Shown here: positions 20,046-30,151 of the stretch, piece after piece | Position numbering within the stretch: position 1 is the first letter of the stretch | Layout: each line of letters begins with the position of its first letter | NCBI RefSeq assembly: GCF_014133895.1 | Contig: NC_050734.1 | Coordinates: 434,001-498,000, forward strand | Reading direction: 5' to 3' | Source: Torulaspora globosa | Taxonomy: Eukaryota; Ascomycota; Saccharomycetes; Saccharomycetales; Saccharomycetaceae | Length of the DNA stretch: 64,000 nt | Notes under the pieces: generated by a model | What the model was told of the DNA's origin: nothing | The model's database searches: none | Seen by the model: only the letters and a program-made list of their open reading frames with translations | Translations under genes and position numbers: made by a program

Positions 20046-20954
20046 TTATTTCTTGGTTGGTGGGTTGAAGACGAACTTTCTATTCTTGATAGCAGCCCAC
20101 TTGAACTTCTTGACCCAAACGGATAGCAAGTATAGGGAGGAAAGTATGATGATGGCTTTCAAACCCAATCTTTTCCTTTCGTCGTGTTCGGGCTCAGCAC
20201 ACCAGTGGAGGAACGTAGTAACATCCTTAGCCATTTGAGAAGTGGTTGCTGGAGTGCCGTCCTCGTACTCAACCAAATCGTCAAACAACACCCTGGCCAT
20301 CGCAATCGAGCCACCTGGGAAGTATGGGTTATAGTTGGCGCCAGGAGGCAGAACAACACCGGCTGGTGGCTCCTCTGGGTAGCCGGTCAAAAGAGAAAAG
20401 ATGTAGTCGGCGCCGCCGTGTCTAGCCTTGACGATCAAGGATAGATCTGGTGGCAAAGCACCCTGGTTGGCAGCCCTAGCTGCCTGTTCGTTGGGATATG
20501 GACCAGGAATGTAGTCAGCCAACTTACCTGGTCTCTTCTTTGGATTACCTTGCTCGTCTGGCTCATCGTCGTACTCGAACTCCGCAGCCATATCGCGTAC
20601 TTCGTTGTTGGTATGCGACACACCAACCAAAGTTCTCCAAGCGACTCTGTCCAGAGAGTGGCACGCGGCACACACTTCACGGTAAACCTGATAACCTCTT
20701 CTAATAGAAGCATGGTCAAACGTTTCAAATGGACCGTTCTGCGGCCAGCCGTACGCTGGCGCGTGTAAACCGTGTTCTGCTGCAGTCATAGCCTCAGCAG
20801 TGAGCGAATCAGCATAAAGCATGGTCGAAGCACCAACACCACCAACAATCGCACCACCAACCAAAAATTTCTTGCTCAAAGACGAACCAGCTTTCAAGCC
20901 AGTAGCAGTGGAAAACCCTCTCTGGGCTACACGTTTCGAAAACTGTGAAAACAT
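20046..20954 (-). CDS. CYT1: Cytochrome c1 of respiratory complex III
   Basis: Haem-carrying subunit of the bc1 complex, anchored in the inner mitochondrial membrane. The 302-residue product begins with an Arg/Ser-rich presequence (MFSQFSKRVAQRGFSTATG) followed by a hydrophobic sorting stretch around residues 30-48, the usual bipartite signal. The haem site CAACH is at residues 95-99. The axial methionine region IAMARVLFDDL and the C-terminal membrane anchor ALKAIIILSSLYLLSVWVK-like helix are present. Length fits S. cerevisiae (309). Start is the ATG at 20952-20954. A CCAAT box lies upstream. Orthologue YOR065W. Confidence 0.97.
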   Translation of the reverse strand: MFSQFSKRVAQRGFSTATGLKAGSSLSKKFLVGGAIVGGVGASTMLYADSLTAEAMTAAEHGLHAPAYGWPQNGPFETFDHASIRRGYQVYREVCAACHSLDRVAWRTLVGVSHTNNEVRDMAAEFEYDDEPDEQGNPKKRPGKLADYIPGPYPNEQAARAANQGALPPDLSLIVKARHGGADYIFSLLTGYPEEPPAGVVLPPGANYNPYFPGGSIAMARVLFDDLVEYEDGTPATTSQMAKDVTTFLHWCAEPEHDERKRLGLKAIIILSSLYLLSVWVKKFKWAAIKNRKFVFNPPTKK

Positions 20955-21248: not shown

Positions 21249-21282
21249 TCTGATTGGCCAAAAATGCGTTTTGGCACGTGAC
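21249..21282 (-). promoter_or_regulatory. CCAAT box and E-box upstream of CYT1
   Basis: TGATTGGCC at about 21251-21259 is a CCAAT element on the minus strand, as bound by Hap2/3/4/5. GGCACGTGA at about 21273-21281 contains a CACGTG E-box. They lie roughly 300-330 bp before the CYT1 start, on the near side of the mitochondrial insert. Respiratory genes of S. cerevisiae, CYT1 included, are activated by the Hap complex. Confidence 0.5.
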
Positions 21283-21385
21283 CTGGCGCCATACTTAAGA
21301 GATCAAAATGTCAGTAAATCGTGTCGCTGATTTTATCGGGTATAAAAAATAATGGAAGATCGCTAGGCCCTGGGAATTGGTTGAG

Positions 21386-21412
21386 GGTGTATGAGGTGTA
21401 TGAGAGGTGTAT
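21386..21412. repeat. Short tandem GGTGTATGA repeat beside the mtDNA insert
   Basis: GGTGTATGA occurs at 21386-21394 and 21395-21403 and is followed after GA by GGTGTAT, giving a third partial copy. It lies directly before the AT-rich mitochondrial insert. It is G/T-rich, and the GGTGT core recalls yeast telomere repeats, but two to three units are too few to call. Confidence 0.45.
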
Positions 21413-21617
21413 TCAAGGTCTGGCTGGATAATAAAATAATAATAAAGTTATATAATAATTATAATTAATAACATAAAATATTTTAATCTTTAATATATAT
21501 ATATATATAGATATTATATATAATATGAATTATAATCTGAAATTCGATACTAGTTTTAATATAAACTTAAGTAAAGATTATTAACTTAAAGTTAACGGCT
21601 ATTATTATTATTTAATT

Positions 21618-21671
21618 TGATTATTATTACCAGCTTTAGTATGTTTAGTTACATCAACATTAGTAGAATCA
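21618..21671 (+). pseudogene. Fragment of mitochondrial COX1 exon
   Basis: Eighteen codons read WLLLPALVCLVTSTLVES, which lines up without gap with the Cox1 segment around CLVTSTLVESG of S. cerevisiae. The first codon is TGA at 21618-21620, which sits exactly at the conserved tryptophan and reads as tryptophan only in the yeast mitochondrial code. The match stops after the ES codons, so the fragment ends near 21671. Confidence 0.8.
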
Positions 21672-21675
21672 GCAC

Positions 21676-21858
21676 TAATTGTTTATATTTATAAGGTCCT
21701 AAAATTTTTCCATTCATTAATTCAAATACTCTTCTTCTTGCTTCTTTTTTACCAAAAATTAATCTTACAGTTTTATCACTATGTAAATATCTAAGGATTT
21801 TACCATATCCGATTAATTTTTTTAAATAATAAGCATTTTTAATATCTTTATAATTACG
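21676..21858 (-). pseudogene. Fragment of a mitochondrial LAGLIDADG homing endonuclease
   Basis: Sixty-one codons are open on the minus strand. They contain AYYLKKLIGYGKILRY, then KTVRLIF and FELMNGKILGPYKYKQL. This is the pattern of the region after a LAGLIDADG motif in COX1 and COB group I intron proteins (YIKSLLGYG... and LINGKL... blocks). The LAGLIDADG motifs themselves are not in the fragment. It abuts the COX1 C-terminal fragment at 21857-21858 with one or two shared bases. Confidence 0.7.
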
Positions 21859-21970
21859 ATTTAGAATATAATACAGATTTATTAGTTGCTTTAATATTTA
21901 AACCATTAATTAATTGATCATATAAGATATAAATAGATAAGAACAAGGAAATAACAGTAATAAATGAACC
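21857..21970 (-). pseudogene. Fragment of mitochondrial COX1 C-terminal end
   Basis: The minus-strand frame contains [18 protein letters not shown] and then NKSVLYSK. This corresponds to the last membrane helix and following tail of yeast Cox1 ([21 protein letters not shown] as recalled, with a few substitutions). A stop precedes and another follows the matching stretch, and there is no exon continuity with the COX1 piece at 21618, which lies on the opposite strand. Confidence 0.8.
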
Positions 21971-22029
21971 TTCCTAAATCTTATAAAATAAAAATAAAGG
22001 ATATTCAATTATAATTAAATATAATTAAC

Positions 22030-22092
22030 TGTAATTAATAAAAATCCATAAGTTAATTGATTTAAAAAATAAAATGGTACTAATTGTGGCAT
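22030..22092 (-). pseudogene. Start of mitochondrial ATP8
   Basis: The minus strand from the ATG at 22090-22092 begins MPQLVPFYFLNQLTYGFLL, matching the N-terminus of yeast Atp8 (subunit 8 of ATP synthase) with a single change (FYFM to FYFL). The match stops after about 21 residues, and a stop follows five codons later. Confidence 0.85.
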
Positions 22093-22381
22093 ATTTTTTT
22101 TATATATTTTTTGGAATTATGGTTGGTGAGATTTTTTTTTCAAGTTTTGTTCTTGGCTGGTCACTTTTGGTTGGCAGGATACAAAGCTTTATTGGTAATT
22201 AGGTGTTTACAGGTTCGTAGTTTTGGCTGAGCGGAATGTGTAGCTTCATTGATGGATTTAGATGGTTTGTACGGCGCTTGTGTGAATATTCATTGTTTCT
22301 GTCTTGTCTATAAGAAGTTGCGGCCGCACCGTCTGGTAGGAGTCGTCTGGCTTGATCACTAAGCAAGACAGAAGAAGAGCC

Positions 22382-22945
22382 ATGGACGTCAGATACAGCT
22401 TTCTGAATACGCTAGAACACTACCCGTGTGAGCTTATACGAGGGCTGTGGACGCTTCAGTCGCTAGATCTTCAAAGAACAGATGCTGGAGTGTCCCACGA
22501 ACGAGACCGATGGCTGGCGATGCACATGCAGAGCCAGTCGGAGCTACTGGAGAGACTTGCAGATGAGCAAATAAGGGCATTGAAGAGCCATAGAAGCCAG
22601 CTGATTGAACTGCAGGGAGTACGAAAGAGGTGCGAGGCTGCCAGAAGGAGGCAGAGAAGGCAGATGCAGCACAAGACGGACAAATTGACGATAAAGCTGA
22701 GTCTTAATAGCAGTAAGAAGAGCAAGCGTAATGTTGCGGAGGCTCCGAAAGTGCAGAATGTGAAATCCGCTGAAGAAGAGCCGGAACAGACCTATTGCTT
22801 TTGTAACAACGTGTCATACGGTGCGATGATTGCGTGCGATAACGAACTATGTCCCAGGGAGTGGTTCCATTACGGCTGCGTTGGCATAACGAAGCCACCC
22901 AAGGGGAAGTGGTACTGCAGCGCCGAGTGCCGAAAACAAGCGTAA
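22382..22945 (+). CDS. YNG1: NuA3 histone acetyltransferase subunit Yng1 (ING/PHD)
   Basis: Reader of H3K4 trimethylation in the NuA3 complex. From the ATG at 22382 ([22 protein letters not shown]) it encodes 187 residues. The ING helical domain is at the N-terminus. The C-terminal PHD finger (about residues 138-184) has the C4HC3 ligands in [22 protein letters not shown] and WYCSAEC, and the GPM-like MIACDN segment that binds H3K4me3. S. cerevisiae Yng1 has 219 residues and a lysine/arginine-rich tail after the PHD finger; here the protein stops four residues after the last zinc ligand. Orthologue YOR064C. Confidence 0.92.
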
Positions 22946-30056: not shown

Positions 30057-30151
30057 CTCCTCATAGGGGGCTCGAACCCCTGACATTTCGGTTATCCTTG
30101 ATTTAAGCGATGCTTAAAAGCCGAACGCTCTACCAACTGAGCTAACAAGGA
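30057..30151 (-). tRNA. tRNA-Lys(UUU) with intron
   Basis: On the minus strand the gene begins TCCTTGTTAGCTCAGTTGG and ends with the T arm GGGGTTCGAGCCCCC, acceptor strand ATGAGGA and discriminator G. The anticodon is TTT. A 22-base intron follows one base after the anticodon, and the ripened molecule would be 73 bases. Acceptor pairs are all canonical or G-U. Sequence and intron position match S. cerevisiae tK(UUU). A Ty3-type remnant lies on its 5' side. Confidence 0.95.

Follow-up and report, generated by a model that had tools for sequence, protein, structure and literature searches.

How did pieces of mitochondrial genes come to lie between the nuclear genes CYT1 and YNG1 of the yeast Torulaspora globosa, and did they arrive together? 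We addressed this question in a 64-kb stretch of the genome, referred to here as the window (C8:434001-498000, in an assembly of 9.28 Mb and eight contigs), whose CYT1-YNG1 interval had been described, from the letters alone, as a mosaic of joined mitochondrial DNA fragments. Our analysis makes it probable that the interval holds a complex NUMT, in which several mtDNA fragments were joined at one break by end joining. Direct support for a complex NUMT comes from the mitochondrial coding pieces themselves, from the two orientations found within COX1, from junctions that nearly abut, and from the nuclear genes on either side.

An AT-rich insert in a nuclear setting

The intergenic region contains an AT-rich insert with a GC content of 17%, against 46.6% for the 64-kb window as a whole; the outer edges of this insert, judged by composition, are accurate to no better than several bases (Table 1). 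The lowest GC content of any 300-bp interval is 15% inside the insert vs 33% elsewhere in the window, and in a sample of 20 genomic 10-kb stretches no such interval falls below 30%. A whole-genome DNA search with positions 21400-22130 as the query, in which simple repeats were skipped, returned one match, the query itself. The TA run of the insert also matches a short AT repeat at L018:3282-3319, which looks like simple sequence.

The insert lies between CYT1 and YNG1, with RPL3 also nearby, on a contig of 914 kb, which in the assembly places it on a nuclear chromosome, as the definition of a NUMT requires. The Yng1 protein encoded next to the insert is 95% identical to an ENA protein and 84% identical to T. 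globosa HG537_0G02560, which points to a Torulaspora near that T. globosa record but distinct from it, and a search of this homologue against Pfam gave no family at E ≤ 1e-5. About 265 bp separate the end of the insert from the YNG1 ATG, and the interval between CYT1 and the insert holds ATTGG (CCAAT on the opposite strand) at 21253 and CACGTG at 21275; if these are control elements of CYT1, then they were left in place. The nuclear DNA directly to the left of the insert (window 21376-21425) is G-rich and contains repeated GGTGTAT-like units. A telomeric origin of this flank was considered and rejected, as inspection by eye of the first 120 bases of the eight contig starts revealed no such repeat.

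Given this setting, we regard it as highly improbable that the locus is an assembly chimera of mitochondrial and nuclear contigs: the long contig carries nuclear genes on either side, the order RPL3-YNG1-CYT1 is also that of S. cerevisiae, and the insert is itself rearranged and not a run of mtDNA. The COX1 family model detected no gene when run over the assembly, a scan with the Cox1 protein gave a single match, which falls inside the insert, and no mtDNA contig was found. Searching the genome with Cob, Cox2, Cox3 and Atp6 of S. cerevisiae gave no matches; the 54-bp COX1 piece described below was overlooked by the scan with Cox1, so other NUMTs could have escaped searches of this kind.

Mitochondrial coding pieces within the insert

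Within the insert we recovered all four coding pieces that the sequence-only reading had proposed, on the strands it had assigned to them and spanning 21618-22092 (475 bp). The C-terminal COX1 piece and the ATP8 piece are firmly identified by their similarity to yeast Cox1 and Atp8, and a scan of the genome with the PF05933 profile returned the ATP8 piece as its only match. The internal COX1 piece, WLLLPALVCLVTSTLVES, whose tryptophan codon is TGA, following the mitochondrial code, is clearly identifiable from its similarity to Cox1: it reached a local score of 87, against a maximum of 60 among 60 dinucleotide shuffles of the insert read in six frames and compared with three Cox1 references. 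Searched alone against the whole PDB, this short piece gave E=0.19, which is not significant, with yeast Cox1 as the top match. The homology to mitochondrial genes that a NUMT requires was established through the proteins of other yeasts as references.

Together, the recognized pieces account for ~415 of the 690 bp (63 + 111 + 54 + 189, less 2 shared), and we infer a mitochondrial origin for the remaining ~275 bp as well. The left part of this remainder (21427-21617) had no Rfam match, and BLAST comparison with fungal mtDNA matched it only as unfiltered low-complexity sequence.

Table 1. Features of the insert and its nuclear neighbors (window positions; COX1 residues in S. cerevisiae numbering)
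Feature	Position	Strand	Evidence
CYT1 (cytochrome c1), left nuclear gene	20046..20954	-	Pfam PF02167 Cytochrom_C1, E=3.3e-100
AT-rich insert, probable complex NUMT, 690 bp	21427..22116		Composition; edges approximate
AT-rich stretch, 11% GC, with TA run	21427..21617		Composition; presumably mitochondrial
COX1 residues 104-121	21618..21671	+	17/18 residues identical to Cox1 P0021
LAGLIDADG-type intron endonuclease piece, region after the catalytic motif (probable)	21673..21861	-	GC at codon position 3; profile score
COX1 C-terminal stretch, residues 457-493	21860..21970	-	PDB 6giq_a, E=8.9e-11
AT-rich stretch, 12% GC	21971..22029		Composition only
ATP8 codons 1-21, from the ATG	22030..22092	-	PDB 6b2z_A, E=1.2e-7; Pfam PF05933, E=7.4e-11
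AT-rich stretch preceding the ATP8 ATG, possibly ATP8 leader; right edge of the insert	22093..22116	-	Position and composition only
YNG1 homologue, right nuclear gene	22382..22945	+	84% identity to T. globosa HG537_0G02560, full protein

A probable endonuclease piece

The identities of the COX1 and ATP8 pieces are firm or clear, and the LAGLIDADG label given to the remaining minus-strand piece is likely, not proven. Its frame is open over 82 codons under translation table 3, a length equalled in 14 of 500 shuffles, and GC occurs at the third codon position in only 4 of 63 codons (p=0.0003). Against a profile built from 15 LAGLIDADG_1 domains of one fungal mtDNA (the contig labelled Streptomyces albospinus described below), the 63-residue core reached 10.6 bits and was outscored by 1 of 998 shuffles, and the full 82-residue frame scored 12.0 bits, above all 998 shuffles; the alignment is in register with the region that follows the catalytic motif. 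A test based on the best pairwise match gave a weaker result: 59 of 3000 shuffles were as good as the core, which scored 48, and another, unrelated frame from the insert reached 45. Searches of Pfam and PHROGs with this piece gave nothing convincing, NCBIfam gave one match below the cut-off (E=0.032), the best PDB match had E=1.2, and a protein database whose length limits exclude full-length endonucleases gave no candidates. A scan of the genome with the PF00961 profile gave no matches and also missed the piece in the insert.

Junctions and origin of the mosaic

The two COX1 parts, residues 104-121 on the plus strand and residues 457-493 on the minus strand, lie in opposite orientations, which excludes a single colinear mtDNA match and upholds the earlier description of the insert as a mosaic and not one colinear block. 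The insert therefore has the arrangement that defines a complex NUMT, namely several non-contiguous mtDNA fragments in differing orientations. The pieces abut or overlap within ~2 bp, at junction positions that are approximate: 21671 is the last base of the internal COX1 piece and 21673 the adjoining limit of the endonuclease frame, and the endonuclease and C-terminal COX1 pieces share ~2 bp. No clear signature of a target site or of microhomology could be established; the ends of the two flanks have words of up to 6 bp in common, the longest probably by chance. As had been suggested, a non-colinear mtDNA mosaic of this kind, in a nuclear intergenic region and with little or no filler between its pieces, is what end-joining repair would leave.

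Specifically, a double-strand break would have arisen between CYT1 and YNG1, end joining would have captured several short mtDNA fragments at the break, and ligation of these fragments in mixed orientation in a single event would have produced the ~690 bp of joined mitochondrial DNA. We consider end joining of several fragments the most likely route because insertions at S. cerevisiae breaks need Lig4 and can join two to four fragments, and because the lengths of our pieces (54-189 bp) fit. In S. cerevisiae, mtDNA capture at breaks requires Lig4 and yields NUMTs of 22-492 bp, the short ones measuring ~45-200 bp, and among ~33,000 insertions from wild-type cells kept stationary for 16 days nearly 4,000 are composites of two to four fragments, the majority of these composites carrying several mtDNA fragments, according to the accessible part of a preprint (PMC10802722).

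The main rival explanation, which we judge unlikely, is that the fragments were already joined in a rearranged, petite-like mtDNA molecule, from which one piece was captured. The ATP8 and C-terminal COX1 pieces lie on the same strand, with ATP8 first. COX1 precedes ATP8 in S. cerevisiae mtDNA, and if this order also applies here, then an ATP8 start followed by a COX1 C-terminus is the order expected from a circularized or tandem deletion unit. For complex organelle insertions, it has been proposed that fragments are concatenated before they insert (PMC2820518, in the portion available). Against this route, the opposite orientations of the COX1 parts would require an inversion in addition, and fragments joined at the break itself are common in experiments (PMC10802722, accessible part).

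Successive insertions over time at the same AT-rich site would also produce a composite insert, and we think this very improbable: the pieces abut, we recognized no nuclear DNA between them, and the authors of PMC6215612 describe it as the consensus that fragments are concatenated prior to capture or while it takes place, in the part of that paper available. End joining of several fragments in one event thus remains our preferred reading. Comparison of the junctions, and of divergence piece by piece, with mtDNA and with sister strains could date the insert and tell ligation at a break from capture of rearranged mtDNA.

State of the pieces and possible roles

All four pieces are free of stops and frameshifts under the mitochondrial code. 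We compared the two COX1 pieces with 34 Cox1 proteins (P0002-P0035, many of them from Saccharomyces; P0001, which is no ordinary yeast Cox1, was left out). In the internal piece none of four invariant columns is changed, and among 14 variable columns one residue is absent from all 34 proteins; in the C-terminal piece one of six invariant columns is changed, and among 31 variable columns one residue is likewise absent from all 34. These substitutions fit modest decay or change within the lineage and do not date the insert. It is possible that the insert is young, as had been proposed, and related species may lack it.

We expect no product from the insert, because its pieces are incomplete and one or more of their tryptophan codons would be read as a stop by the nuclear code, and annotators should not take them for genes. 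The idea of an ancient or transcribed gene was rejected, as no frame spans more than one piece. The insert could instead have come to serve the nucleus from its place between CYT1 and YNG1, which are divergent genes, by acting either as an origin of replication or as a spacer, poor in nucleosomes, that separates their promoters; we hold either role to be very improbable. The 11-bp origin consensus occurs in the insert 0 times exactly vs 0.43 expected and 9 times with one mismatch vs 6.2 expected with at most one mismatch; it is not enriched, and a role as origin was set aside since the motif is not above expectation. NUMTs can act as origins in S. cerevisiae (PMC3050842, in the part available).

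Comparison with known NUMTs

Nearly every yeast species examined is reported to carry NUMTs (PMC5499181, available portion), and a review notes that NUMTs can hold non-continuous pieces in different orientations (PMC2820518, portion available). The Torulaspora insert most resembles the complex NUMTs recovered at HO breaks in S. cerevisiae, which likewise consist of short, mostly mitochondrial fragments (two to four in that case) joined at one place, with overlapping sizes; those insertions are experimental and lie at MATa, whereas ours occurs naturally and in a different genus, and both its break and the repair genes involved are deduced (PMC10802722, accessible part). The nuclear chromosomes of S. 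cerevisiae also contain pieces of mtDNA, both resident and newly captured, that are nearly always intergenic, but those analyzed measure 22-236 bp and are rich in origin motifs, whereas the Torulaspora insert shows no such enrichment and totals ~690 bp, a size above that range that counts against our reading (PMC3050842, in the part available). NUMT clusters likewise occur in the genome of Pichia sorbitophila, a yeast of another lineage, with 24 NUMTs in 15 clusters (PMC3284337, available excerpt). Complex organelle insertions of plants also combine fragments from different places and in different orientations, with blunt junctions or 1-7 bp of microhomology, but unlike our ~690-bp insert the examples considered are kilobases long and may include plastid DNA (PMC6215612, part available).

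We found no description of a Torulaspora NUMT in the parts of the open-licence literature available, so the insert may still be reported elsewhere. It would represent a natural multi-fragment NUMT in Torulaspora; complex insertions are already known in yeast, and in other respects it would be an ordinary repair scar.

Other candidates and searches

The mobile elements called WHO in Torulaspora contain pieces of genes (PMC7282813, in the part available), and an element of this type was set aside from the listing of open reading frames, which has no ORF of at least 120 aa wholly between CYT1 and YNG1. In a plus-strand frame of the insert, a match to a sodium symporter family below the Pfam cut-off (E=0.0045) was dismissed as chance similarity of a hydrophobic stretch. 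RNA genes in the insert were likewise rejected, with no Rfam match at E ≤ 10 and no genes called by ARAGORN in three settings; a relaxed ARAGORN setting gave many low-score calls there, which we took as noise. Elsewhere in the window, at 30057-30151 on the minus strand, ARAGORN called a tRNA with an odd four-base anticodon, which could reflect an intron in the tRNA or else a misfold.

Searches of yeast mtDNA against viral and prokaryotic contig collections gave no confirmed relative or no match. A phage tblastn search gave two matches (E=2 and E=8), and a plasmid blastn search gave 12 records, each covering 5-7% of the query. One such collection search listed 351 relatives, of which 80 were kept, bacterial by title except for one archaeal; these 80 all entered one tblastn search, GC content was determined for four, and L023 alone was examined closely. 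This contig, labelled Streptomyces albospinus JCM 3399 (L023, NZ_BMRP01000034.1:42577-62828; also L103-L123), has 29% GC over 20 kb and contains COX1- and COX2-like frames under table 4, together with 15 LAGLIDADG_1 matches, which supplied the domains of our profile, and six LAGLIDADG_2 matches. These features suggest that mtDNA of a fungus has contaminated a bacterial assembly.
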